Positions 7,465-21,766 of a stretch of DNA of 64,000 nucleotides are shown one piece after another. The DNA is taken from the NCBI RefSeq assembly GCF_900110075.1, contig NZ_FOCJ01000002.1:558001-622000 (forward strand). The letters run 5' to 3'. The notes under the pieces were generated by a model. It searched no databases, was not told the DNA's origin, and was given only the letters and a program-made list of their open reading frames with translations. Position numbers and translations under genes: made by a program. Within the stretch, counting starts at the first letter, position 1. Each line of letters begins with the position of its first letter. The stretch is from Paenibacillus sp. OV219. Lineage in GTDB: Bacteria > Bacillota > Bacilli > Paenibacillales > Paenibacillaceae.

Positions 7465-9480
<2,016 letters not shown>

Positions 9481-9530
9481 TCATCTATTCTTCATTCATT
9501 ATGTTCTACAGCTCACATCGAACGTTATCA

Positions 9531-9545
9531 CATTCGTCTCGAATG
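9531..9545. promoter_or_regulatory. Palindromic candidate operator between aldo/keto reductase and araC-type gene
   Basis: CATTCG-TCT-CGAATG is a perfect 6-bp dyad in the divergent 166-bp gene-to-gene gap. Its position suits a regulator controlling one or both genes. AraC proteins more often use direct repeats, so the bound factor is not certain. Confidence 0.4.
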
Positions 9546-9631
9546 ATTGCCTAATCCTCTCAAACCACTTAAGTACTAAGTAAAGTTGGATTATAATGAA
9601 GCTAATAAAGCTGACGGAAGAGGGGAATCGA

Positions 9632-10525
9632 ATGTCTGGAATAAACATGACACAGCAGCAAGAGCTTACCAACATTATTGAACGGTATTCAGATGGGGAT
9701 GGTGTACATAAAACTGCGATTCCATCTTTATATTTCTTACGTCGGTCAAGTACGAGCGAGCCAAGCCACGGTGTATATAAGCCGTCTTTTTGTATGATTG
9801 TACAAGGAGCTAAGGAGGTGTGGTTAGCACAGGATCGTTTCAAGTACAGTCCTGCAGATTATCTTGTCGCTTCCGTACATTTGCCAGTCAATTCCCAGGT
9901 TACTGAAGCTACTCCAGAGCTGCCGTACTTGGGTCTGAAGCTTGAATTTGAACCGAGCCAGATCATTGAGGTGTTACATGATTCGGAACTGTTGGTCGAT
10001 CCGAAGGTAAATCCGAAACGTGCGATGTATGTCAGTCATATTGAATCGTCTTTATTGGATGCGGTCGTCAGGCTGGCTCGGCTGTTAGATAATCCAAACG
10101 AAATACCTGTGCTAGCTCCAATATTTACGAAAGAAATCCTTTATAGGGTGTTGCAGGGTGAGAACGGGGATATCTTGAAAGGGCTTGTAATGGAAGAGAG
10201 CGCCATCAACCAAATCCGCGATGTGATCGAACATATTGTAAACCATTATGAGCGTTCCTTCCGTATTGAGGAGCTCGCAGAAATAGCGAATATGAGTGTT
10301 TCCACTTTTCATCGGCACTTTAAAGAAGTCACGGCTTTGAGTCCTATTCAATATCAGAAGCAAATGAGACTCCAGGAAGCCCGTCGTTTATTATTAACCG
10401 AGTCCTCAGACGCCTCTGACGTAGCATTTCGTGTAGGTTATGAAAGTACGTCTCAGTTCAGTCGTGAATATTCCCGGATGTTTGGATTCCCGCCTCGCCA
10501 AGATATTAAGCGCTTAAAAGCATAG
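9632..10525 (+). CDS. AraC-family transcriptional regulator with AraC_N sensor domain
   Basis: A 297-residue regulator. The N-terminal part (about 1-175) resembles the AraC_N type (PSFCMIVQGAKEVWLAQDRF, then YLVASVHLPV). The C-terminal ~100 residues hold two helix-turn-helix motifs (RIEELAEIANMSVSTFHRHF and SDVAFRVGYESTSQFSREYS). ATG 9632 was preferred over the ATG at 9596 because AGAGGGGAATCG precedes it. It is transcribed divergently from the aldo/keto reductase. The same pairing occurs in E. coli, where the AraC_N protein YqhC activates aldehyde reductase genes, so an aldehyde-stress role is a reasonable inference. Confidence 0.88.
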   Translation: MSGINMTQQQELTNIIERYSDGDGVHKTAIPSLYFLRRSSTSEPSHGVYKPSFCMIVQGAKEVWLAQDRFKYSPADYLVASVHLPVNSQVTEATPELPYLGLKLEFEPSQIIEVLHDSELLVDPKVNPKRAMYVSHIESSLLDAVVRLARLLDNPNEIPVLAPIFTKEILYRVLQGENGDILKGLVMEESAINQIRDVIEHIVNHYERSFRIEELAEIANMSVSTFHRHFKEVTALSPIQYQKQMRLQEARRLLLTESSDASDVAFRVGYESTSQFSREYSRMFGFPPRQDIKRLKA

Positions 10526-10545
10526 AGGATTACCCAGTAATAGTA

Positions 10546-10575
10546 GGCAGGCCACTAGAGGCTTGCCTTTTCTTT
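10546..10575 (+). terminator. Rho-independent terminator
   Basis: Stem GGCAGGCC/GGCTTGCC (one G·U) with loop ACTAGA, followed by TTTTCTTTG. It follows the AraC-type gene. Confidence 0.75.
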
Positions 10576-10704
10576 GTTGTAATGGAGGTTGAGAGGATTA
10601 GGCAATGATTCAGCATGAATGAGATAACGATACAGGTTGTACTTACTGCATAATTAGTATGGCTACATGAGTGACAACTAACTGGATATGAAGGAGAAGT
10701 TATT

Positions 10705-11904
10705 TTGTACACACGATTGAGAAAATTGTTTGCAATTAAAGGCTATCGTTTATTTGTCATTTGTGTTCTATTTGTTGGATTTGGGATTTCGATTACAATG
10801 CCGTACTTAGCTCTCTATTGTACGGAGGAGCTCGGTATGAGCGCAGGAACATTTGGCTTTTTTACAGCTGTAAGTTCATTAAGTGGCGTATTTGCAAATT
10901 CGCTCATTGGTAAATATTCGGATCGCAATTTGGATCGCAAGTTTATTATTATAATGGCCACAGTTTCATCTGCAGCGGGCTATGCTTCTTATGTAATGTT
11001 TGATAATTACTTGATTTTGCTCATACTCGTTGGTTTTTTTAGTGGTTTGGGAGCAGCCGCCATGCCTCAAATTTATGCTTATGCTCAGGAGTCGGCCAAT
11101 GAAAGCAACTCGGATGACAAGACGTTTGCCATGTCAACATTACGTACCTTAGTGTCACTAGGGTTTCTAGTCGGACCTTTAGTTGGAACAGTGATCTTAG
11201 GAGTAGTTGGATATAAGGGGCTATTTCTCGGGACATCCACCATATTTCTTGTTATCGCCTCACTTGTACTTCTATATTTACCTAGGAAGAGAGCGGCTCA
11301 AAAGAAGAGAGTAGGCACCGCTGAGGCCAATTCGTTCAACCGGAGGAAAATTTGGTATCCATTGCTTGCTTTCATCCTACTATTTGCGGTAAATGCTATT
11401 AATGGGATCATCACGCCATTGTTTATTGTAAACGAGCTTCATGGTACACATACTGATGTCGGATTGGTTGTAAGCATCTGTGCTGGACTTGAGATCCCCA
11501 TTATGTTCGCGCTAGGCGCACTAGGCAGGAAGTTATCGAACCATACATTAATGATTAGCGCTTGCTTTATTGCACTGATGTACAACGTCATATTAAGCGT
11601 CTCAACGGACTCCTGGCAGATTATCGGAGCGCAGCTGCTTCAGGCGGTGTTTGTTGCGATCGTTATGGGTAATGGGCTAAGCTATTTCACGGAGCTGCTG
11701 CCAAACTCGCCAGGGATGTCCTCTTCAATCTATTACAACGGAACCATTATTGGCAGGTTACTCGGCAACTTAGGTGGCGGTCTCGTCGCACAGTATGTAG
11801 GGATTCGTGATGTTTATTGGGTCAGCCTAATCGTTGTTGTTGTTTCGTTCATTATTTTATGGAGGACAAGAGCTCAGAAGGGTACTGAAGCAGCATCCGC
11901 CTAA
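10705..11904 (+). CDS. MFS transporter, sugar-efflux (SET) type
   Basis: A 399-residue, 12-helix major facilitator. The N-terminal half has [14 protein letters not shown] and [14 protein letters not shown], the MFS loop 2-3 pattern as seen in SetA/SetB sugar exporters. A basic central loop ([11 protein letters not shown]) separates two six-helix halves. TTG 10705 is the start, with AAGGAGAAG 7 nt upstream. The cupin gene follows 29 bp downstream and may be co-transcribed. The substrate is not determinable. Confidence 0.85.
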
Positions 11905-11933
11905 ATGGTATGAATATCGGAGGGATTGATAAC

Positions 11934-12329
11934 ATGGAAATCAGAAGAATTGGGTCACAGCCTTCAGGCAAAGGGTCAGCAGATTATTTTACGGGCACGG
12001 TTCGCCTTGATCCATTAATGGAAACGGCCGATCCAGCGCGTGTAGTTGCAGCAAGCGTTACGTTCGAGCCGGGGGCGCGGACAGCATGGCATACGCACCC
12101 ACTTGGACAAACGCTGATCGTAACGGCAGGAAAGGGACGGGTTCAGCGAGAGGGTGGTCAAATCGAGGAAATCAGTCCCGGCGACGTAGTCTGGTTCCCG
12201 CCAGGCGAGAAGCATTGGCACGGAGCATCACCGACGACGGCGATGACCCATATTGCCATTCAAGAGCGTCTTGATGGGAAAACGGTTGAATGGTTGGAGA
12301 AAGTGAGTGAGGAGCAATACAATTCCTAA
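11934..12329 (+). CDS. Cupin-domain protein
   Basis: A 131-residue single-domain cupin with both motifs: [17 protein letters not shown] (metal-binding His-X-His) and [17 protein letters not shown] (second Glu/His). It is similar to small stress-associated cupins often annotated as (R)-mandelonitrile lyase-like or carboxymuconolactone-decarboxylase-associated. ATG 11934 was chosen over the earlier ATG 11910 for its GGAGGG ribosome site. A metal-dependent enzyme is likely but the reaction is unknown. Confidence 0.85.
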
Positions 12330-12343
12330 TCACATGAAATAGA

Positions 12344-12378
12344 GAGGCCTTCGCGATTGTTAGCGGGGGTCTCTTCTG
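12344..12378 (+). terminator. Probable terminator after the cupin gene
   Basis: A 12-bp imperfect stem (AGAGGCCTTCGC with GCGGGGGTCTCT, three G·U pairs) and loop GATTGTTA, followed by only a weak T-rich stretch. Confidence 0.5.
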
Positions 12379-12543
12379 CGTTGTAGGGATAACTTTTCGT
12401 TATAGGCATTTAACTTATTGATAGTACTGCACGCGGGTAGCCAAGTGTTAAAGTAAATGAGCCGGTGAGATACTACAAGTTGAACGAAACATTCCGTACT
12501 TCCTAGCTACTTACCGTTAACTTCTCTTAAAGGAGCAGATAAC

Positions 12544-13054
12544 ATGGATCACTTGTTTACACCGTTTCAGATAAAAGGTCTTGAGCTCAAGAACCGGGTC
12601 GTTATGCCGCCGATGTGCCAGTATGCCGTCAAGAATAAGGACGGAATCGCAAACGATTGGCATTATAACCACTATGTAAGCCGTGCAATCGGAGGCGCTA
12701 GAAGAGAGAATTGCATTCTCTAAAGTCTATCGAGACGCTGGAGTAGATATGTTTCATGTCAGCTCCGGACGGGAAGGTCCGATTCTCGCGCACGGAAGGC
12801 CGGGTACTCATGTCGCGTATCAAGTGCCGATGGCTAGAGAAATCAGACATGCATTGAATATGCCTGTCATTGCCGTCGGTAGGCTAGACGAGCCTACACT
12901 CGCGAATGCCGTCGTTGGCAATGAAGAAGCTGGGCTAGCGGCTGTAGGACGTGGTATGTTAAGAAATCCTTATTGGGCACTAGAGGCTGCCGCTGAACTA
13001 GGTAAAGAAATTCAATATCCAGGCGTGTATGGGCTTGGATTTGGAATCAAATGA
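12544..13054 (+). pseudogene. Old Yellow Enzyme (NamA/YqjM-like NADPH dehydrogenase) remnant
   Basis: The first 51 codons from ATG 12544 (ribosome site AAAGGAGC) are a clear OYE N-terminus: MDHLFTPFQIKGLELKNR, PPMCQYA, NDWHYNHYVSRAIGG. This frame then hits TAA at 12721. The family's C-terminal part (YRDAGVDMFHVSSG, YQVPMAREIR, GRGMLRNPYWALEAAAELG) continues in another frame. Comparison with a ~338-residue NamA implies an internal deletion of roughly 180 residues plus a frame change, removing most of the FMN barrel. The gene is certainly non-functional. Its 3' end is duplicated in tandem. Confidence 0.85.
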
Positions 13055-13180
13055 AGAAGCTGGGCTAGCGGCTGTAGGACGTGGTATGTTAAGAAATCCT
13101 TATTGGGCACTAGAGGCTGCCGCTAAACTAGGTAAAGAAATTCAATATCCAGGCGTGTATGGGCTTGGATTTGGAATCAA
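12921..13180 (+). repeat. 130-bp tandem duplication of the Old Yellow Enzyme 3' end
   Basis: Bases 12921-13050 are repeated at 13051-13180 with one difference (GCTGAAC versus GCTAAAC). Both units start ATGAAGAAGCTGGG. The junction created the TGA stop at 13052; the second copy retains what is probably the original TAA at 13182. The near identity implies a recent event. Confidence 0.95.
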
Positions 13181-13208
13181 ATAAACGAAATAACTGGAGG
13201 TCATGGTC

Positions 13209-13442
13209 ATGGTTTTGACAAAAGAACTTACTACTGTGCAACAAGTGATGAAACGTTGGAAAATGAACCGTAACGCTTTGCTCGAACTCGTCGAGCTGCT
13301 GCCTGAATCAGGTGGGACTTATCGCCCTTGGGATAATGGGATGACTACGATTGAACTGATCCACCATCTTGCGTTGGACAGAACGGATTGCGGCTGGAAC
13401 GCAAAGCTCTATAGTCGATCATTCAATAGGTTATGCTCTTGA
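13209..13442 (+). pseudogene. DinB-family protein fragment
   Basis: A 77-residue frame starting MVLTKELTTVQQVMKRW. The pattern RNALLELVELLPE ... YRPWDNGMTTIELIHHL is the first helix pair of a DinB/YfiT-like four-helix metal protein, normally about 150-165 aa. After HHLALDRTD the sequence becomes unrelated and stops. ATG 13209 is favoured over 13203 because CTGGAGG lies 8 nt upstream. The rest of the gene is missing, and a 12-G run follows at once. A complete DinB gene lies at 57438-57920. Confidence 0.65.
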
Positions 13443-13445
13443 GGC

Positions 13446-13457
13446 GGGGGGGGGGGG
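13446..13457. repeat. Homopolymer of 12 G
   Basis: GGCGGGG... contains 12 consecutive G immediately after the broken DinB frame. Such a tract is slippage-prone and may be a mutation or assembly artefact. Confidence 0.9.
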
Positions 13458-13592
13458 AGTGTAAAGATGAAGTTTATTGAACATGCAAGACATTGAAGCC
13501 GCAAGAAATAAGTGCGGGTGATCCCCAATAAACCAAAAATGTAAAAATAGTTCATGTCCTATAATACTGCCCAGTCATTACATCATTATTTT

Positions 13593-13601
13593 CATAGAAT
13601 A
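13593..13601 (+). promoter_or_regulatory. Sigma-K-like -10 of the second small paralogue
   Basis: CATAGAATA fits CATANNNTA exactly and lies in a 23-bp block (13588-13610) identical to 3864-3886. No AC is found at the ideal -35 spacing here, so the -35 is weaker than in the first copy. Confidence 0.55.
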
Positions 13602-13635
13602 GAGCATGTCCACTAAGAAAGTGTGGTGAGACGCC

Positions 13636-14016
13636 ATGCCTTATTCTACTGGTCCTGTAACGAATACTAGAGATTTCGGAACAGCTTCAACTAATATTGT
13701 TGTAAGTGTAAGAAATCTAGATGTGACTACCCCAGTAACGATTATCGCAGAGATTTTTGCTTCTGTTGATTCCAGTACGTTCTATACTGCATACCAACTC
13801 TCGTATGTAGTACCTCCGAACTCTTATAATGTTAGGGAGTTCTTTATTGCGGGAAATGTAACCTATGAGGTTCAGCTTAATACAATGGATGTTAGCCCGC
13901 CTGATGTATTAATGGCTGTTACTGGTCTTAACGAATTCGGAAATCTAGTCGAGGAGCAACTCTTTAATCAGAATGAGCTTATCCTTATTTCTGCAATGAG
14001 TCCTCCTATTATTTAA
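13636..14016 (+). CDS. Small protein, candidate late-sporulation (spore-surface) protein, paralogue 2
   Basis: A 126-residue paralogue of the 3911-4279 product, starting MPYSTGPVTNTRDFGTAS and sharing RNLDV, EIFASV, FYTAY, LSYVV, GNVTYEVQLN and GLNEFGNL. There is no signal peptide, Cys or membrane segment; predicted mostly beta. It is a single gene between its own sigma-K-like promoter and terminator. The ribosome site is GTGGTGAG. Spore coat/exosporium location is inferred from the promoter only. Two diverged copies about 10 kb apart point to an older duplication with the promoter conserved. Confidence 0.75.
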   Translation: MPYSTGPVTNTRDFGTASTNIVVSVRNLDVTTPVTIIAEIFASVDSSTFYTAYQLSYVVPPNSYNVREFFIAGNVTYEVQLNTMDVSPPDVLMAVTGLNEFGNLVEEQLFNQNELILISAMSPPII

Positions 14017-14029
14017 TTAATTCGTTTCT

Positions 14030-14062
14030 TAATAAGGCTGCCGTTCAACGGGAGCCTTATTA
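14030..14062 (+). terminator. Rho-independent terminator
   Basis: Outer stem TAATAAGGCT/AGCCTTATTA and inner stem CCGTT/AACGG around one C. It lies just after the second small paralogue and is likely bidirectional. Confidence 0.75.
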
Positions 14063-14415
14063 ACCACTTCTGATCCTAATTCGTCCCCAAACGCAAAAAA
14101 ACAGACTGTTTAGTCTGTTCGGCTGTTTGTTGTCATAAAAAAAAACCGGGGCCCCATTGCTGGGGCCCCTTTCATGGGAGAGGAGAAACCGGACGAAGAG
14201 CTTATGGGGAAACGTAAGTCTTCTCCGCGGTTGTCTACGGCATCTCGCGACGCCGATATCTTAAGAATGCCCACATCAGGGGGAAATATACGTCAGCATT
14301 AATTTATTCCTTTGGCATTGTGGGTTAGGTTAGCGTATGTAAGGTATTTAGAATTAAAGTTTCCTCACAAGCGTCATGTATAGACTGAATTATTAGAAAA
14401 TTAAATGAAAACCCG
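14063..14415. other. Intergenic stretch with two further hairpins
   Basis: No gene is seen. ACAGACT-GTTT-AGTCTGT (14101-14118) is preceded by a run of A, and GGGGCCCC-ATTGCT-GGGGCCCC (14148-14169) by nine A, so on the minus strand both look like terminators with U-tracts. No minus-strand gene ends here, so they may be relics. 14200-14415 shows nothing recognisable. Confidence 0.5.
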
Positions 14416-14461
14416 ATGACAAAACAACGTTTCGCTTATATGATGTTAGTAAAACTAACAT
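14416..14461 (+). promoter_or_regulatory. Promoter and palindromic operator of the allantoin operon
   Basis: ATGACA (14416-14421), 17-nt spacer and TATGAT (14439-14444) form a good sigma-A promoter. A perfect dyad ATGTTAGT-AAA-ACTAACAT (14443-14461) begins inside the -10 and covers the expected transcription start, a position where a bound dimer would repress. The regulator is not encoded next to the operon. Confidence 0.6.
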
Positions 14462-14483
14462 TATCGAAATGGAGGCGGTTGGC

Positions 14484-15887
14484 ATGGCGGCTTACGACTT
14501 CATTTTGCAGAACACAGTCGCTGTTACCCCGGAAGGCGTGGTGAAACGCGATATCGGCGTGTTAGAAGGACGGATCTCAGCGATTGAGGCGAAGCTACAG
14601 AACGATAGCTGTCCGGTTATTGATGCGGCGGGACTGACCGTCATGCCTGGCGGAGTGGATGTACATGTTCACTTCAATGAGCCAGGCATGGGGCATTGGG
14701 AAGGGTTCGAGACTGGCTCGGCGGCGCTGGCGGCGGGCGGCACGACAACATATTTTGATATGCCGCTTAATGGCCGTCCGCCAACGGTTACTGCTTCGGC
14801 TTTCGAGCAGAAGCTTGACACTGCGTTAGGGAAATCGGCTGTTGATTACGCGCTATGGGGCGGGCTTATGCCGGGCTATGTGGATCGGCTTGGTGAGCTT
14901 GCGGAATCTGGAGTCATCGGATTCAAAGCTTTCATGTCTTCGCCTGGTATGCCTCTTGAGGATGATTTTCGGGAATCGGATGAAGCGGTGCTGCTTGAGG
15001 GGATGAGGGAGGTTGCTCGTCTTGGGTCCATTCTTGCACTGCATGCTGAGGATAATGAGCTTGTAGCGCGGCTCTCGACCATTGCACAAGCTGCTGGATA
15101 TACGGATGCATACAGCTACACCGCGTCAAGGCCCATTGCGGCGGAAGTGCTTGCGGTCGAACGGGCGCTTTCGCTTGCGGAACAAACGGGATGCAAGCTT
15201 CATTTTGTCCATGTGAGCAGTGCGGTGGCGCTCTCGAAGATTACGGAAGCTCGCCACCGTGGAATGGATGTGTCGGCGGAGGTGTGTACGCACCAGCTGA
15301 TGCTGACGGCAGACGATCTCGCTCGGCTAGGACCAGTTGCTAAATGCGCGCCTCCGCTGCGTACCGGCTCGAATATGGAAGCGTTATGGGCTGCCCTCAT
15401 CCGCGGAGAGGTTGATATGATTGCATCGGACCATTCCCCCTGTGAGACTTTAATGAAAGAAGGCGATGATTTCTTCGCGGCATGGGGCGGGATATCAGGT
15501 GCGCAGCATCGGATAGAGCTAATGATTGACGAAGGGCATCTGAAGCGGGGCATACCACTGACGTTAATGGCAGAACTGCTCGCAGGGAAACCTGCGGAGC
15601 GTTTCGGCCTTGGGGGTCTTAAAGGTCGTCTCGAAGTGGGAATGGATGCGGATTTCGTGCTCATTGATCTGAAGCAAAGCTATAAAATAGAAACGGAGGA
15701 CCTGCTCTACTTGCACCCGCACAGTCCATTCGTTGGACGGGAAGTCGGCTGTAAAGTAATGGCGACCTTCTGCAGAGGCCAGCTCGTATACTCTGCTGAT
15801 CAAGGAGTTCTCGTGAACCGTATCGGTAAGTTCCTGAAAGCTACTGGGGATTCGCGGCGAGCTCGGACTCGCAAGGTAGAGCGATGA
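14484..15887 (+). CDS. allB: Allantoinase
   Basis: Cyclic amidohydrolase that opens the hydantoin ring of allantoin to allantoate in purine catabolism; cytoplasmic, dinuclear-metal TIM barrel. Visible features are the metal motif MPGGVDVHVHFNEPG, the allantoinase-typical HWEGFETG and FDMPLNGRPPT, the carboxylated Lys in GVIGFKAFMSSPG, later His ligands in LHAEDNE and KLHFVHVSS, and Asp in SDHSPCE. The close match to E. coli AllB around AWGGISGAQ argues against dihydropyrimidinase. Length is 467 aa. ATG 14484 has GGAGGCGG 5 nt upstream; an earlier in-frame ATG at 14469 has none. First gene of a six-gene operon. Confidence 0.93.
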   Translation: MAAYDFILQNTVAVTPEGVVKRDIGVLEGRISAIEAKLQNDSCPVIDAAGLTVMPGGVDVHVHFNEPGMGHWEGFETGSAALAAGGTTTYFDMPLNGRPPTVTASAFEQKLDTALGKSAVDYALWGGLMPGYVDRLGELAESGVIGFKAFMSSPGMPLEDDFRESDEAVLLEGMREVARLGSILALHAEDNELVARLSTIAQAAGYTDAYSYTASRPIAAEVLAVERALSLAEQTGCKLHFVHVSSAVALSKITEARHRGMDVSAEVCTHQLMLTADDLARLGPVAKCAPPLRTGSNMEALWAALIRGEVDMIASDHSPCETLMKEGDDFFAAWGGISGAQHRIELMIDEGHLKRGIPLTLMAELLAGKPAERFGLGGLKGRLEVGMDADFVLIDLKQSYKIETEDLLYLHPHSPFVGREVGCKVMATFCRGQLVYSADQGVLVNRIGKFLKATGDSRRARTRKVER

Positions 15888-17167
15888 AGAGCGTGGAGAA
15901 GTTAGGAACGGAGGCGGAGGGATGGCTCCGTGAACTCGGGCAGTTCGGGGCTGATGCGATTCGTGGAGGAGTGACAAGGCTTCTATATACAGAGGAGTGG
16001 GTGAACGCTCAGCTATGGATTGCAGAGGAGATGAAGCAAGAAGGGCTTGAGGTTCGGACAGATGAGGTCGGCAATGTATATGGCAGGCTAAGTGGGACGA
16101 CCCCTGAATTGCGAGCTATTGTTACAGGTTCACATGTCGATACGGTAGTCTGCGGCGGCATATATGATGGTTCTTATGGTATTGTTGCAGCTATTATCGC
16201 ACTGCGCGAGCTGAAACAACGTTACGGGCAGCCTCGTCGCACAATCGAAGCTGTATCGCTTAGCGAGGAGGAAGGGAGTCGGTTTCCGCTTACTTGCTGG
16301 GGTTCTGGGTCTATTACTGGAAAATACTTGGTTGAGGATGCCGTGCACATTCGATCTGAATCGGAGGGTCTCACGCTCTCGGATGCGATGAGGGATGCGG
16401 TTGGCAAACTGATCGCTGGCGCCGGCATTTCGCTCGAACCTGCGCTGAGACATGATGTTGAAGCGTTCATAGAACTTCACATTGAGCAAGGAGGAGTGTT
16501 GGAGGAAGAGGGGGTTGCACTCGGAATTGTAGACCGGATTGTCGGCCAGAAGCGGGCGACGATTACGGTTCTCGGTGAATCGAATCATGCCGGTACGACA
16601 CCGATGCATATGCGCCGTGATGCGCTTCATGCCTCTGTCGCGATGATAGCCGCGTTGAATGAGTTGGCTTCTGAAGCAGGAGCTCCGCTGACATTCACGG
16701 TCGGTTCACTTCAAGTTGAACCGAATTTGTCAAATGTCATCCCAGGCAAAGTTGTGTTTACGATTGATATGCGTCATCCTTCGGATGAGAAGCTTCAGGT
16801 GTATTATGACCGAGCGGCGGCGATAACGGAGCGTGAGGCGGGACGTTTCGGTGTTGATGCCCGCATTGAACTATGGATGAACGAACCATCCGCCGGAATG
16901 AACGCTGGGCTTCGGCTGCTGCTCGAACAGAGCTGCATTCGCAGTGATGCCAGCTGGAAGTTGATGCCTAGTGGAGCGGGACATGATGCTCAGCTGTTTG
17001 CCGCGCATTGCAAAACGGCGATGTTATTCGTTCCGAGCCGAGGCGGTATCAGTCACTCGCCGTTCGAATATACGCCTCCTGCTTATCTTGGGACGGGAAT
17101 ACACGGTCTAATTGACCTACTATATGAGCTTGCGTACACAGACGTATATGAAGACGAATGGGGGTAA
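15884..17167 (+). CDS. Zn-dependent amidohydrolase: allantoate amidohydrolase / ureidoglycolate amidohydrolase type
   Basis: A 427-residue M20-fold hydrolase of the hydantoinase/carbamoylase group (AllC/HyuC). Metal ligands appear in VTGSHVDTV, YDGSYGIVAA, LSEEEGSRFPL and FIELHIEQGGVLEEEG. The NHAGTTPMHMRRDAL segment marks the dimerisation lid. In this context it most likely hydrolyses allantoate, releasing ammonia and CO2. The related ureidoglycolate amidohydrolase and N-carbamoyl-amino-acid hydrolases cannot be excluded from sequence alone. The start overlaps allB by 4 bp (ATGA), indicating tight coupling. Confidence 0.85.
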   Translation: MKSVEKLGTEAEGWLRELGQFGADAIRGGVTRLLYTEEWVNAQLWIAEEMKQEGLEVRTDEVGNVYGRLSGTTPELRAIVTGSHVDTVVCGGIYDGSYGIVAAIIALRELKQRYGQPRRTIEAVSLSEEEGSRFPLTCWGSGSITGKYLVEDAVHIRSESEGLTLSDAMRDAVGKLIAGAGISLEPALRHDVEAFIELHIEQGGVLEEEGVALGIVDRIVGQKRATITVLGESNHAGTTPMHMRRDALHASVAMIAALNELASEAGAPLTFTVGSLQVEPNLSNVIPGKVVFTIDMRHPSDEKLQVYYDRAAAITEREAGRFGVDARIELWMNEPSAGMNAGLRLLLEQSCIRSDASWKLMPSGAGHDAQLFAAHCKTAMLFVPSRGGISHSPFEYTPPAYLGTGIHGLIDLLYELAYTDVYEDEWG

Positions 17168-18475
17168 ATGGTCAACATGAAAGCAGCCCACATTAAGCTC
17201 GAGGCATGGATTGAGAAGCATGAGCATGAGATGATAGCACTCCTCCAACGGCTCGTGCAAATGCCTTCTGATAACCCGAAGGGAGATTGTCTCGCGATTG
17301 CGGAGCTCGTCTTCAATGAGTTGTCTGCTCTAGGTTTCGCACCTAGGATGGACGTGGTTCCGCACGAGGATGTGCGAGCGGCCGGGATGATCGCGGTTAG
17401 CAATGTTGTTGCTGACACGAGGCTTGGCGAAGGGCAAGGGCTGGTGATCGTGCTTAACGCACATGGCGACGTGGTGCCGCCTGGCGATGGTTGGAGCTGC
17501 GATCCATATGGCGGCATGATTGAAGCCGGCAAGCTATTCGGCCGTGGTGCAGCTGTGTCCAAATCTGATATTGCTGTGTACACATATGCAGTTATGGCGC
17601 TTCGAGATAGCGGTGTGTGGGAAGCGCAGCAACAGCAGCAACAGCATCAACAGCCTGGCGGCACGCTCGCGCTCGCTTTTACTTTCGACGAGGAAACAGG
17701 TGGAGAGCTTGGGCCGAAGCGGCTACTCGAACAAGGAACGATTAAGCCTGACTACGCAATCGTAGCTGGTTTCACGCATGCAGCCGTGACATCGCATAAT
17801 GGCTGTCTTCATCTAGAAGTATCGCTCAAGGGGCGGTCGGCCCATGCGGCGATTCCGCATACCGGTGCTGATGCGCTCGAGGCGATGACGGAAGTGCTGA
17901 TGGAGCTCTATGACTATCGTGCTGAATTGGGACAGCGGCATTCAGGTGTCATTGGCATCGAGTCTCCGACGCTTGTAGTGGGGTTGATTCAAGGGGGCAT
18001 CAATACGAATGTCGTGCCTGACCGATGTACGATCCGGCTGGACAGACGTATTATTCCGGAGGAGAATCCAGAGCTTGCTGAGCAAGAATTGCGTGAGTTG
18101 ATTGCAAGGACGGCTGCCCGTTTCCCACAGATTGAATTAGATGTGCACCGCGTTCTGCTCGCGCGTCCTTTCTGTGAAGTGGAAGGGACAGAGCAGCTGC
18201 TTTGCGCGCTTCGCCCGAACTGGTCGGCTGTCATGGGCGGCGTGGAGATGCCTGTGGTTGGTGTGCCGCTTTACGCGGATGCGAGGCATTTCACGGAGGC
18301 TGGCGTTCCTACTGTTATGTTTGGCGCTGGTCCGCGCACGTTGGAAGAAGCGAATGGTCATCGGGCAGATGAGCATGTGCAGATTCGCGATCTGACATTA
18401 GCGGTTCGCATCCTGTCTTTTATGCTGTATGATCTACTTAATGATGCCACTTTCCTGGCGGAAAATGACAAGTAG
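17168..18475 (+). CDS. M20-family (ArgE/DapE) deacylase in the allantoin operon
   Basis: A 435-residue metallo-deacylase. Metal-binding motifs are LNAHGDVVPPGDGW, FGRGAAVSKSD, the Glu-Glu of FDEETGGELG and the C-terminal ADARHFTEAG. The dimerisation domain begins at HLEVSLKGRSAHAAIPHTG. A Gln-rich insert (about residues 153-162, QQQQQQHQQ) is unusual and sits in a surface loop. The start is ATG 17168, directly after the upstream stop; ATG 17177 is an alternative with better spacing from the G-rich site. Its reaction is not given by sequence; in this operon it could act on ureidoglycolate or another N-acyl/N-carbamoyl intermediate. Confidence 0.82.
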   Translation: MVNMKAAHIKLEAWIEKHEHEMIALLQRLVQMPSDNPKGDCLAIAELVFNELSALGFAPRMDVVPHEDVRAAGMIAVSNVVADTRLGEGQGLVIVLNAHGDVVPPGDGWSCDPYGGMIEAGKLFGRGAAVSKSDIAVYTYAVMALRDSGVWEAQQQQQQHQQPGGTLALAFTFDEETGGELGPKRLLEQGTIKPDYAIVAGFTHAAVTSHNGCLHLEVSLKGRSAHAAIPHTGADALEAMTEVLMELYDYRAELGQRHSGVIGIESPTLVVGLIQGGINTNVVPDRCTIRLDRRIIPEENPELAEQELRELIARTAARFPQIELDVHRVLLARPFCEVEGTEQLLCALRPNWSAVMGGVEMPVVGVPLYADARHFTEAGVPTVMFGAGPRTLEEANGHRADEHVQIRDLTLAVRILSFMLYDLLNDATFLAENDK

Positions 18476-18500
18476 ATGATGAGACAGGAGCTGGTAAGTA

Positions 18501-19457
18501 GTGAAAATTGTAGTTTTGGACGGTTATACGCTAAATCCGGGTGATCTGAATTGGGATGAAATCGGATCGCTCGGCGAGCTGGTTGTGTATGACCGCACGG
18601 CGAAAGAAGATATCGTAACTCGAGCGGCCGATGCCGAAATTGTGCTGACGAACAAGACTCCGTTGTCTGCGGAATGTATCGGCAAGCTGCCGCATCTCAG
18701 ATACATCGGCGTTCTCGCGACGGGTTACAATATCGTGGATACACAGGCTGCTGCACAACGTGGCATCGTCGTCACAAACGTGCCGGATTACAGCACACAT
18801 TCCGTCGTGCAGCTTGTATTTGCGCTGCTGCTTGCACATGCATCTCAAGTGAGCGCGCATAGTGATGCCGTTCATCGCGAGCAGTGGGCGACCTGCCCGG
18901 ATTTCTCGTTCACGCTAAGCCCGCTGCGCGAAATCTCCGGCAAGACGCTTGGCATTATCGGTTTTGGTCAGATTGGCCAGCAAGTGGCACGGGCTGCGCT
19001 TGCTTTTGGCATGGAAGTTATTGTGCATACGCGGACAGTCAAACTCGTTCCGGGATTAGAAACCGTTCGTTTCGTTCCGCGTGAAGAGCTGTTCCGCATG
19101 GCTGACGTTGTTTCGCTACACAGTCCGCTAACGTCAGATACGACTGGTATCGTGAACAGCGATACACTCGATCTTATGAAGCGTTCTGCCTTTTTGATCA
19201 ATACCGCACGCGGCGGTCATGTCGTTGAGGCAGACTTGGCTCAAGCGCTGAACAGCGGCCGCATAGCCGGAGCGGGGCTGGATGTCCTCAGCGTAGAGCC
19301 GCCGCCTGCCGACAATCCGCTGCTGCATGCGGCAAACTGTATCATCACGCCGCATATTGCGTGGGCGACGGTGGAGGCGCGCAGCCGTCTCATGTCGATT
19401 GCGGCGAACAATTTGCGCGCGTTCCTGAGCGCTGATATTCAGAATCAGGTGAACTAG
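18501..19457 (+). CDS. D-2-hydroxyacid dehydrogenase (glyoxylate/hydroxypyruvate reductase type)
   Basis: A 318-residue NAD(P)-dependent dehydrogenase. It has the Rossmann motif LGIIGFGQIGQQVA, the substrate loop GVLATGYNIVDT, the catalytic Arg in NTARGGHVVEAD, Glu in AGLDVLSVEPP and His in ITPHIAWAT. The TGYNxVD loop and GLDVL pattern are those of glycerate dehydrogenase/hydroxypyruvate reductases. The start is GTG 18501, 25 bp after the deacylase. Glyoxylate is the carbon end product of allantoin breakdown, so reduction to glycolate (or hydroxypyruvate to glycerate) is the natural inference here. Confidence 0.87.
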   Translation: MKIVVLDGYTLNPGDLNWDEIGSLGELVVYDRTAKEDIVTRAADAEIVLTNKTPLSAECIGKLPHLRYIGVLATGYNIVDTQAAAQRGIVVTNVPDYSTHSVVQLVFALLLAHASQVSAHSDAVHREQWATCPDFSFTLSPLREISGKTLGIIGFGQIGQQVARAALAFGMEVIVHTRTVKLVPGLETVRFVPREELFRMADVVSLHSPLTSDTTGIVNSDTLDLMKRSAFLINTARGGHVVEADLAQALNSGRIAGAGLDVLSVEPPPADNPLLHAANCIITPHIAWATVEARSRLMSIAANNLRAFLSADIQNQVN

Positions 19458-19461
19458 GCCA

Positions 19462-19836
19462 ATGCGGGGATTCGGCATTATTATGGGATTTGACGGGTTG
19501 GGATGGCTGCTGCATACCTATGCGGGTATTCCTTTGCCGTCGCATGTACTGGGGCTGTTGCTGCTTGTGGCAGCTCTGTTTACGCGTGTCATCAAACTGG
19601 AGTGGGTAGAAGAGAGTGCTACTTTCCTGACGAAGCATATGATGCTGTTCTTCATACCGCTCCTCGCGGGTGTTACTGCCTTCGCCAAGATGCTAGGCGA
19701 CTCCTGGCTTGCAGCTGTAGTGTCTCTAACAGCAGGGACACTTGTCATTCTGCTGTCCACGGGCATTGCGACTCAATTTATCATCGCGTACCGCCGAAAG
19801 GAGGTGGCGGACGTTGAACAACAGTCTGATTGCTGA
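19462..19836 (+). CDS. CidA/LrgA-family membrane protein
   Basis: A 124-residue protein with about four membrane segments. GIPLPSHVLGLLLLVAALF and LTKHMMLFFIPLLAGV are the family's two hallmark regions. ATG 19462 lies 4 bp after the dehydrogenase stop; an in-frame TGA just upstream fixes this as the earliest start, so the first helix is slightly shorter than usual. It overlaps the LrgB-type gene by 23 bp. Known roles of the pair include autolysis control, pyruvate transport in Bacillus, and glycolate/glycerate transport in plant plastids (PLGG1). Here it is encoded with glyoxylate-producing enzymes. Confidence 0.85.
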   Translation: MRGFGIIMGFDGLGWLLHTYAGIPLPSHVLGLLLLVAALFTRVIKLEWVEESATFLTKHMMLFFIPLLAGVTAFAKMLGDSWLAAVVSLTAGTLVILLSTGIATQFIIAYRRKEVADVEQQSDC

Positions 19837-20503
19837 TCCGATCTTCGGCACGACGCTGACTATCGCGGCATATGGCGCTGCGCTCTTCCTGAAACGAAGA
19901 TGGAGCTGGTTGCATCCTTTAATCGCAGCGCCTCTCCTCGTTTATGTTGTATTGCAACTAGGCGACATTCCCTATAGTGCGTACCGGGTTGGCGGGGATA
20001 TGGTTACCTACTTCCTTGGGCCAGCAACTGTCGCGATGGCGGTCCCGCTGTATAAACATGCGATTCGGCTGCGTCATCTGCTGCCATCGCTGCTTCTTGG
20101 TGCTTTCGTCGGGAGTTTGCTAGGGTTGCTCGTAAATGCGCTGTCGGTCATTCTGTTTGGGGGCACAGAATCGTTTCTGCATTCGGCGCTGCCTAAGTCC
20201 GTGACTGCGGCGGTAGCGATTGATTTGTCTCGCTGGCTAGGAGGTTCGCCAGAATTGACGGCTGCGCTTACGGTGACGACCGGTCTAATCGGCAGCGTTG
20301 TTGGACCTCCACTGCTTCGGCTATGCGGGGTCACCGATAAGATTGCAGCTTCAATTGCGATTGGTGCGGCTGCGCATGGCATCGGTTCGGCAAGACTGTT
20401 GTCCGAATCGGAGGAGCAAGGCGGGCTAAGCGGATTCTCAATGGCTGCTTGCACCGTATTTACTCCTGTATTATTGCTGCCCGTTCATGCTTGGTTGCTA
20501 TAG
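19814..20503 (+). CDS. LrgB/CidB-family membrane protein
   Basis: A 229-residue polytopic protein. It has the LrgB landmarks LGPATVAMAVPLYKH, LHSALPKSVTAAVAIDLS, GGSPELTAALTVTTGLIG and ASIAIGAAAHGIGSARLL. TTG 19814 is the start, with an excellent AAAGGAGGT 7 nt upstream; the longer reading frame lacks a ribosome site. It is presumed to form one transport complex with the CidA/LrgA-type protein. It is the last gene of the allantoin operon, an unusual location; transport of glycolate or glycerate is the inferred function. Confidence 0.88.
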   Translation: MNNSLIADPIFGTTLTIAAYGAALFLKRRWSWLHPLIAAPLLVYVVLQLGDIPYSAYRVGGDMVTYFLGPATVAMAVPLYKHAIRLRHLLPSLLLGAFVGSLLGLLVNALSVILFGGTESFLHSALPKSVTAAVAIDLSRWLGGSPELTAALTVTTGLIGSVVGPPLLRLCGVTDKIAASIAIGAAAHGIGSARLLSESEEQGGLSGFSMAACTVFTPVLLLPVHAWLL

Positions 20504-20632: not shown

Positions 20633-21766
20633 TTGAGCGAGAAAGAGAAAGAGTTTGATAAGGAAGCCCAGCTAGATGCAGTCAATAAAGAAGAGCAAGA
20701 AGGAGTCTTCTCGGTAGAATCGCGCGAAGAGCTTGAAGATAGCCGTGATGAAGCGAGTGTAGAGGCTGAAGAAAATGAAGAAGAGGAAGAGACGAAAGAG
20801 GCAGCGAAGCCAGCGGCCAATGGCGGCGGCAGAGCGTGGATGTATATCTCCATCGGTCTTGCAATTGTTCTTCTCGTATTCCTCGTGAAGTCGCCATTTG
20901 GCAGTAGCGGCGGTAACGAAACGGTTGGTTCCGTCAATGGCACCTCGATTACGAAGGATCAGCTGTATGATGCAATGGCGAAGGTTGGCGGCCAACAAAC
21001 GTTGGACAACCTTATTCAAGATGAACTTGTGAAACAAGAAGCCGATAAGAAGGGTATTGTAATCGGCGATAAAGAAGTAGATGCAGAAATTGCTAAGATT
21101 AAGAAGCAATTCCCGACAGATGCAGATTTCGAAGCTGCACTGCAGCAAGCGGGCATGTCTCTTGATGACTTGAAAGCACAAACGCCAATGCAGCTTCGTA
21201 TTTCGAAGCTTGTTGAGCCGCAAGTCAAAGTAACTGACGACGACGTGAAGAAATATTTTGACGAGAATAAAGCAACTTTCGACGAGCCTGAGCAAGTGAA
21301 GGCTTCCCACATTCTTGTGGCAACAAAAGAAGAAGCTGATGCGATTGAGAAGCAGTTGAAAGACGGCGGTGATTTCGCAGCGATCGCAAAAGAGAAATCG
21401 ACGGATCCTGGCAGCAAAGATGCTGGCGGCGACCTCGGTTACTTCAGCGCAGACAAGATGGATCCTGATTTCGCAAAAGTGGCGTTCGAGCTGAAAGCCG
21501 GCGAGACTAGCGCGCCAGTAAAGACGCAATTCGGTTACCATATCATTAAAGTATTTGATCATAAAGCAGGTAAACAAGCGACTCTCGACGAGAAGAAGGC
21601 GGATATTAAGGATACACTGATTCGTCAGAAAGTATCGGAGCTTTCTCCAACATGGCTCGCGGATTTGAAATCCAAATCCCAAATCACAAACACGTTGAAG
21701 CAAGATGAAGCGGCAGCACCAGAGGCAGCGGCACCTGAGACGACGACAAACGGCATCACAAATTAA
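20633..21766 (+). CDS. Membrane-anchored peptidyl-prolyl isomerase / foldase (PrsA-SurA-like)
   Basis: A 377-residue type II membrane protein that probably assists folding of exported proteins. Residues 1-66 are an acidic cytoplasmic stretch, 68-86 one membrane helix (MYISIGLAIVLLVFLVK), about 95-205 a SurA_N-like chaperone domain, and about 222-315 a parvulin/PpiC domain (KASHILVATKEEAD, GGDLGYFSADKMDPDF, TQFGYHIIKV). It ends in an Ala/Pro/Glu/Thr tail. It lacks the lipobox of classic PrsA. The start is TTG 20633 with GGAAGGGA upstream. Single gene with its own terminator. Confidence 0.87.
   Translation: MSEKEKEFDKEAQLDAVNKEEQEGVFSVESREELEDSRDEASVEAEENEEEEETKEAAKPAANGGGRAWMYISIGLAIVLLVFLVKSPFGSSGGNETVGSVNGTSITKDQLYDAMAKVGGQQTLDNLIQDELVKQEADKKGIVIGDKEVDAEIAKIKKQFPTDADFEAALQQAGMSLDDLKAQTPMQLRISKLVEPQVKVTDDDVKKYFDENKATFDEPEQVKASHILVATKEEADAIEKQLKDGGDFAAIAKEKSTDPGSKDAGGDLGYFSADKMDPDFAKVAFELKAGETSAPVKTQFGYHIIKVFDHKAGKQATLDEKKADIKDTLIRQKVSELSPTWLADLKSKSQITNTLKQDEAAAPEAAAPETTTNGITN

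Follow-up and report, generated by a model that had tools for sequence, protein, structure and literature searches.

In the breakdown of allantoin, AllB opens the molecule, after which allantoate loses ammonia and CO2 to AllC; in Escherichia coli the allantoin regulon also includes glyoxylate carboligase and tartronate semialdehyde reductase. A run of six genes in Paenibacillus sp. OV219, lying within a stretch of 64,000 nucleotides (contig NZ_FOCJ01000002.1, positions 558,001 to 622,000; hereafter the window), may be built on a comparable plan. It consists of genes for an allantoinase (allB), an allantoate amidohydrolase-type enzyme (allC), an M20 family hydrolase (M20), a D-2-hydroxyacid dehydrogenase (HADH) and the two subunits of an LrgAB-type membrane pair (lrgA and lrgB). 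Like the E. coli regulon, it would join allantoin breakdown to a glyoxylate-consuming branch that uses NAD(P)H; unlike E. coli, the genome of the window (G000) has no carboligase scoring above the cut-off and has the dehydrogenase and the membrane pair instead. A second comparison is offered by the Bacillus-type allantoin operon, found in 10 genomes of the same genus (loci L044-L053), which shares the allB-allC order with the window but differs in its third gene, coding for an aminotransferase and not for an M20 hydrolase, and shows no HADH or lrgAB match at these loci. We call this class V aminotransferase PucG-like, after its position behind allC; it reached no NCBIfam cut-off.

For the membrane pair, the closest described systems are carriers. 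According to two papers (PMC5626966, PMC8805020), the plastid protein PLGG1 carries glycolate and glycerate, and pyruvate is carried by the Bacillus subtilis pair PftAB (YsbAB) and by the Staphylococcus aureus pair LrgAB. PLGG1 resembles the pair of the window in being a carrier of the LrgA/LrgB family beside glyoxylate/glycolate chemistry, but it is one fused plant protein, whereas the window has two proteins with a putative substrate. PftAB and the S. aureus LrgAB are two-gene pairs like that of the window; the window proteins are below the cut-off of every NCBIfam model that they matched. Judged by titles and the first lines of abstracts, none of the papers listed from the openly accessible literature (a scope outside which most subscription papers fall) dealt with LrgAB in purine breakdown or with an M20 ureide hydrolase of the present type. 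The author of an earlier note on this DNA, drawn up from the sequence alone, was not aware of LrgAB as a part of purine catabolism. Another M20 gene, ygeY, is mentioned in an E. coli purine cluster in PMC4016543.

The six genes are as follows.

14469..15887, + strand: allB, allantoinase (TIGR03178 above cut-off; closest solved structures the allantoinases 3hm7, 8hfd and 3e74)
15884..17167, + strand: allC-type allantoate amidohydrolase, hydantoinase/carbamoylase family (TIGR01879 above, TIGR03176 below cut-off; closest structures 1z2l and 4pxd)
17168..18475, + strand: M20, ArgE/DapE-like hydrolase, proposed to catalyse the last ureide step to glyoxylate (PF01546, PF07687)
18501..19457, + strand: HADH, D-2-hydroxyacid dehydrogenase, putative glyoxylate/hydroxypyruvate reductase, GTG start (PF00389, PF02826)
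19462..19836, + strand: lrgA, small membrane subunit (PF03788 above cut-off; sole match in G000)
19814..20503, + strand: lrgB, large membrane subunit, TTG start (PF04172 above cut-off; sole match in G000)

The order and the close packing reported in the earlier note (overlaps or gaps of at most 25 bp) were borne out, with all six frames on the + strand and junctions of -4 (allB/allC), 0 (allC/M20), +25 (M20/HADH), +4 (HADH/lrgA) and -23 bp (lrgA/lrgB). The TTG at 19814 is our choice of start for lrgB; the listed frame begins at 19742. The six-gene run is real, and it is more than a chance neighbourhood because the same order is found in a distant member of the genus (G018) and because sub-blocks of it recur in many genomes; their recurrence across genera rules chance out. 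Tight spacing of all six genes was seen only in the window.

The explanation that we tentatively prefer, quite possible but short of probable, is an operon for purine nitrogen that has a glyoxylate outlet. Allantoin would be opened by AllB, and AllC would remove ammonia and CO2 from allantoate; M20, standing in place of the PucG-like aminotransferase of other genus members, would free glyoxylate from a ureide intermediate; HADH would spend NAD(P)H on the reduction of glyoxylate to glycolate, or else of hydroxypyruvate to glycerate; and LrgAB, as a relative of PLGG1, would move the hydroxy acid across the membrane. On allantoin as the nitrogen source the direction would be export, and the exported acid could come back in and be oxidized by GlcD/GlcF. 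As to its history, lrgAB would have joined behind HADH in one genus, most members of which later dropped the allantoin part and kept HADH-lrgAB.

The assignments at Pfam level hold for all six proteins, and among curated single-function models only that for allantoinase was exceeded (AllB, 538.4 bits against 357.85 for the equivalog TIGR03178). The AllC protein passes the subfamily model TIGR01879 and scores 419.3 against 597.75 for the AllC equivalog TIGR03176, its nearest solved structures being allantoate amidohydrolases. The earlier claim that the first enzymes serve allantoin breakdown is supported. M20 stayed below the cut-off of each of the 25 NCBIfam models listed (out of 47), and its nearest solved structures are DapE/ArgE entries. 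HADH has both 2-hydroxyacid dehydrogenase domains above their Pfam cut-offs and reached no NCBIfam cut-off. Its GxGxxG motif was located, as were the Arg (ARGG from residue 236), Glu (SVEPP from 264) and His (TPHIAW from 283) motifs, which we take to be those of the catalytic residues. The closest structure is 5tx7, a 2-hydroxyacid dehydrogenase entry with no stated substrate; entries for glycerate dehydrogenase or glyoxylate reductase come far behind. LrgA and LrgB form an adjacent pair of the LrgAB/CidAB type by their Pfam families; LrgB scores 166.3 bits with TIGR00659 (cut-off 249.7), LrgA at most 69.3 of 124 bits with the named CidA/LrgA equivalogs, and no solved structure turned up as a credible relative when LrgB was searched (best E 0.042).

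How far the arrangement extends was studied in 22 genomes of the genus, that of the window included, counted singly though they are related. HADH is present in 21 of them, and near full-length lrgA and lrgB lie beside it in 16 (G000, G001, G002, G004, G006, G007, G008, G010, G011, G014, G015, G016, G018, G019, G020 and G021): the HADH-lrgAB pairing is the rule in this genus. Where a genome has two lrgB places, the copy at HADH was read (in G012, the C23 copy and the HADH locus), second copies being mostly unread. An allantoinase of at least 47% identity occurs in 13 of the 22 genomes, and allantoin genes precede HADH only in G000 and G018, the two genomes with the full six-gene order. In G018, M20 and HADH overlap by 4 bp. 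The link between dehydrogenase and LrgAB drawn in the earlier note thus stands, but lrgAB is rarely beside allantoin genes: the search for co-occurrence in relatives, which that note had called for, found the full order again in G018 and no lrgAB next to allantoin genes in the other 20 genomes.

One further gene accompanies the pair.

20633..21766, + strand: prsA-like foldase, conserved downstream neighbour, outside the proposed pathway (PPIC-type and SurA_N domains)

It follows lrgB or HADH in all 21 genus genomes with HADH, a constancy that could be taken to mean that LrgAB acts like a holin/antiholin, or in the envelope, in connection with the prsA-like gene. The family name points the same way, and S. 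aureus CidA and LrgA show holin activity according to PMC8805020. We nevertheless consider this idea very improbable, given that 129 bp separate lrgB from the prsA-like gene, that the latter remains where lrgAB has been lost (L027-L030) and that the constant upstream partner of lrgAB is HADH.

HADH stands with allantoin genes, as the preferred explanation supposes, outside the genus also. M20 was found (E 1e-80 or better) in 7 of 197 genomes of the family: G000, G018, G001, G023, G041, G053 and G063. The last four are of a second genus, where they account for four of the six genomes read, and carry an allB-M20-HADH block with no lrgAB at it; taken with the two genomes of the first genus, HADH adjoins M20 in 6 genomes. 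The second-genus block sits after genes for MreB, MreC, MreD, MinC, a MinD-type ATPase and a RodA/FtsW-type protein, and before genes for an M23 peptidase, an M50 peptidase and RNase E/G (all by Pfam), the two peptidase genes being presumably spoIVFA and spoIVFB. In these four genomes allC is on the contig of allB but about 42-46 kb away from it, and in G041 and G063 the matched stretch holds one TAA. Outside the genus of the window 19 of the 32 HADH loci were read, and none of these had an LrgA or LrgB match (E 1e-8) beside HADH; lrgB was found away from HADH in many of these genomes, including all six of the second genus.

Within the first genus, traces of the same block were looked for by comparing the DNA upstream of HADH with M20 and setting the score against the best of 60 shuffles. 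In G001, 31 residues match the end of M20 in frame and stop at the same place (score 92, best shuffle 38), and in G017 there are 96 residues' worth of M20, interrupted by a stop (276 against 43). A short stretch in G003 (50 against 46) would be weak alone. None of the other 16 genus genomes without an intact M20 before HADH beat its own best shuffle, the closest being G004, G019, G006 and G002 (3, 5, 9 and 9 of 60 shuffles as good), and no remnant was seen before HADH in G073, G082 and G034. In trees, the M20 of G000 and G018 were joined (99/96), and then joined with the second genus (98/95); the same was observed for allB (100/99, then 93/92). HADH was matched in 53 genomes of the family; the HADH tree, which covers 40 of them (that of the window among these, 13 being left out), makes the two genera sisters with moderate support (85/77) and places G000 and G018 apart within the first. 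The remnants before HADH and the compatibility of the trees make it probable that allB-M20-HADH was already a block when the two genera parted; on the simplest reading of its history, lrgAB then came in behind HADH in one genus and the allantoin part was lost repeatedly. Separate joinings of allB-M20 to HADH may be an alternative history. Fresh insertion of allantoin genes before a resident HADH-lrgAB was set aside on the remnants of G001, G017 and G003 and on the trees; the arrangement looks old rather than accidental. G001, whose HADH groups with those of the window and of G021 (100/100), would have lost its copy before HADH; it carries a different M20-type purine operon elsewhere, the M20 of which groups with Mesobacillus (86/91).

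That operon (L026 3900-15701) bears directly on the role of M20. It comprises xdh subunits, a fusion of 2-oxo-4-hydroxy-4-carboxy-5-ureidoimidazoline (OHCU) decarboxylase and uricase, 5-hydroxyisourate (HIU) hydrolase, allB, allC, M20 and malate synthase G. The only gene between AllC and a glyoxylate-using enzyme is M20, and because the operon puts M20 directly before malate synthase G, its product is very likely glyoxylate. The likeness to the window lies in an M20-type ureide branch that ends in a glyoxylate sink; the difference, in that the sink is malate synthase, with the HADH-lrgAB of G001 elsewhere, behind the M20 remnant. A second line of evidence is the distribution of M20 and the PucG-like gene in 28 genomes (thresholds E 1e-80 and E 1e-40, respectively): the former is found in 7 and the latter in 10, never together, and among the 17 genomes with allB such exclusion would occur by chance 1 time in 19,448 if kinship is ignored. 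The genome of the window has no PucG-like gene at this threshold; no search aimed at ureidoglycolate lyase was made. M20 is not simply a replacement of PucG, however, since outside this set, in Fictibacillus gelatini, a PucG-like gene (68% identity) shares a locus (L074) with M20. At that locus (7559-18158), allB-M20 is followed by genes resembling those for tartronate semialdehyde reductase, a class II aldolase, GlcD/GlcE and GlcF and, further on, by the PucG-like gene; the reductase-like and glycolate oxidase-like genes are all below cut-offs.

A wider scan confirmed at least 562 M20 loci, of which the best 80 were considered; counts from these lean to close relatives, and some of the loci are on short contigs. 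An AllC-family match is found in 49 of the 80, and a match of 38% or more to OHCU decarboxylase/uricase, HIU hydrolase or allantoinase in 38; purine genes occur in 15 of the 16 loci from Bacilli (L059-L074). By this gene context, M20 is a candidate for splitting ureidoglycolate or ureidoglycine, and it is likely a widespread purine-ureide enzyme, which is the unexpected gain of the analysis. In some Neobacillus and Bacillus loci (L060, L064) the order is OHCU decarboxylase, uricase, HIU hydrolase, allB, (allC), M20 and then urease genes; urea may be a product there. A thiamine pyrophosphate (TPP) enzyme at L067 passed none of the cut-offs of the 25 models shown.

The same loci bear on another assignment for the dehydrogenase, as a ureidoglycolate dehydrogenase making oxalurate, with LrgAB moving oxalurate or oxamate. 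Ureidoglycolate is itself a 2-hydroxy acid, and the adjacency of HADH to M20 in 6 genomes would suit such a step. It is improbable all the same: HADH is matched in only 2 of the best 80 M20 loci (L059 and L073, taken for the already counted G023 and G041), the M20 operon of G001 leads straight to malate synthase, and HADH is kept in genomes without allantoinase. HADH as an obligatory ureide step is disfavoured by the 78 loci without a nearby HADH match.

No malate synthase match was found in G000 (5 of the 28 genomes have one), and glyoxylate carboligase exceeded its cut-off in none of the 28, the sub-cut-off matches present in all of them being taken, by their scores, for acetolactate synthases or relatives. 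HADH is favoured as the glyoxylate outlet in G000 because the PucG-like enzyme, malate synthase and an over-cut-off carboligase are absent, other glyoxylate-using enzymes not having been searched for; it is plausibly the best local candidate for this role. The proposal of the earlier note that the dehydrogenase reduces glyoxylate gains from these three missing outlets and from the tie of HADH to allantoin genes in two genera, but no glyoxylate-reductase cut-off is reached. That LrgAB carries the product of HADH is a fair guess, because proteins of this type carry glycolate/glycerate or pyruvate. The earlier note's idea of a carbon outlet is plausible for HADH and may hold for LrgAB. A bolder version would make M20 an unrecognised ureidoglycolate/ureidoglycine hydrolase of Bacilli and Proteobacteria, often found without PucG, and HADH-LrgAB a glyoxylate valve exchanging glycolate or glycerate, a counterpart of the PLGG1 shuttle in free-living cells; as a whole, we regard it as unlikely.

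Several findings, besides the Fictibacillus locus, weigh against the preferred explanation. HADH remains well below the cut-offs for glyoxylate reductases (PRK13243, 210.6 of 455 bits; GhrA, 99.1 of 403; GhrB, 157 of 492). The pair lrgAB adjoins allantoin genes in only 2 of the 22 genus genomes and none of the best 80 M20 loci, and HADH-lrgAB is kept in 5 genomes (G002, G008, G011, G020, G021) without an allantoinase match of at least 47%, so that lrgAB is tied to HADH rather than to the breakdown of allantoin; on this point the tie of lrgAB to purine breakdown seen in the earlier note loses ground. Conversely, HADH lacks an intact adjacent lrgAB in five genomes (missing in G003, G009, G012 and G013, decayed in G017). 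Even in G018, 592 bp with no convincing gene (L002 4120-4711) separate HADH from lrgA; this gap consists largely of direct repeats (51-bp units and a 119-121-bp duplication). HADH without allB or M20 also occurs in the same mre neighbourhood in G073 and G082 of the second genus, which have no AllC match, and in G034 of a third genus; since these three have HADH there without allantoin genes, HADH may have stood in the mre neighbourhood before its allantoin partners did, and possibly before the second genus arose. In G034 it is located at L031 6853-7959, between mreC-mreD and the M23/M50-peptidase genes. Finally, G000 has GlcD above the cut-off with an adjacent GlcF-like gene. With these two, glycolate could in principle be re-oxidized, and glycolate as a dead end is untenable. 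GlcD exceeds 540 bits, a line drawn after the scores had been seen, in 15 of the 16 HADH-lrgAB genomes as compared to 2 of the 5 with HADH and no intact lrgAB (p 0.028, kinship ignored). It scores 333 bits in G013, and no match above 540 bits was found in G018. The association would suit exchange or uptake no less than export.

These observations can be accommodated if HADH-lrgAB is a free-standing module for 2-oxoacids and 2-hydroxyacids (e.g. uptake or release of pyruvate/lactate or glycolate) with its own promoter, the allantoin genes being inherited neighbours with no shared function. We consider this a real possibility, though not a probable one. It is favoured by the 14 of 16 HADH-lrgAB genomes without allantoin genes in front and the five without allantoinase, by the strong GlcD of 15 of them, by pyruvate transport in B. 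subtilis and S. aureus, as described in the papers cited above, and by a conserved site discussed below. It does not readily explain why allB-M20-HADH is also a block in a second genus, among cell-shape and sporulation-type genes, and the three trees (M20, allB and HADH) are compatible with an old link.

The following site bears on whether the run is one operon or two.

18405..18433, + strand: promoter-like site in the 3' end of M20 (TTCGCA-17-TATGAT consensus match)

A single transcript is favoured by the short interval of 25 bp from M20 to HADH and by the overlaps at other junctions. The site in the M20 tail counts on the other side, as does a TATGATC that 12 of 19 relatives with no intact M20 there have at 51-88 nt before HADH (searched within 110 nt; mean shuffled expectation 0.16, the genomes being related). 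An internal promoter would, according to the earlier note, argue against its proposal; the candidate site, kept in these relatives, may indeed drive HADH-lrgAB, but promoter-like sites in the window are at chance level (9 found, 8.7 expected). TATGAT is also spelled by Tyr-Asp codons of the conserved M20 tail, and it may be coding only in the window and have been turned into a promoter of HADH-lrgAB in relatives. Their remnants suggest an operon dismantled piecewise, its outlet left standing and perhaps driven by a promoter that derives from the end of the gene that was lost.

If the operon with a glyoxylate outlet is correct, a bacterial LrgAB pair gains a substrate and a pathway beyond pyruvate, the plant glycolate/glycerate carrier has a bacterial parallel, and bacteria from more than one phylum have a single candidate enzyme family for the step from allantoate to glyoxylate.

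Upstream of the run lie two further features. A promoter-like site coincides with position 14416, the start that the earlier note had given to the operon, and an RNA is predicted before it.

14137..14230, + strand: RF00516 'ylbH leader' RNA, upstream of the run (77.3 bits, gathering threshold 50)

RF00516 occurs exactly once in each of the 22 genus genomes. In 17 of the 21 with HADH it shares the strand of the genes and precedes HADH, the allantoin genes or what remains of these; in the other four (G006, G010, G016, G019) it is on the opposite strand to HADH, 24 kb away in one of them. As a leader of the run it is, therefore, not a rule. About 90 bases of this region are nearly identical in 8 aligned sequences, and some relatives have open frames on both strands. 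The end hairpin (14137-14170) is preceded by an A run in the 8 sequences; the - strand there reads as a hairpin followed by a T run, resembling an intrinsic terminator, and the RNA may come from the other strand than that given by the Rfam model. Further upstream, at 12544-13181, a gene for a NamA-like NADPH dehydrogenase is broken: residues 53-225 are unmatched, and the pieces correspond to residues 1-52, 226-343 and again 300-343, in three different frames, of a 343-residue frame that is intact in G001 and G021.

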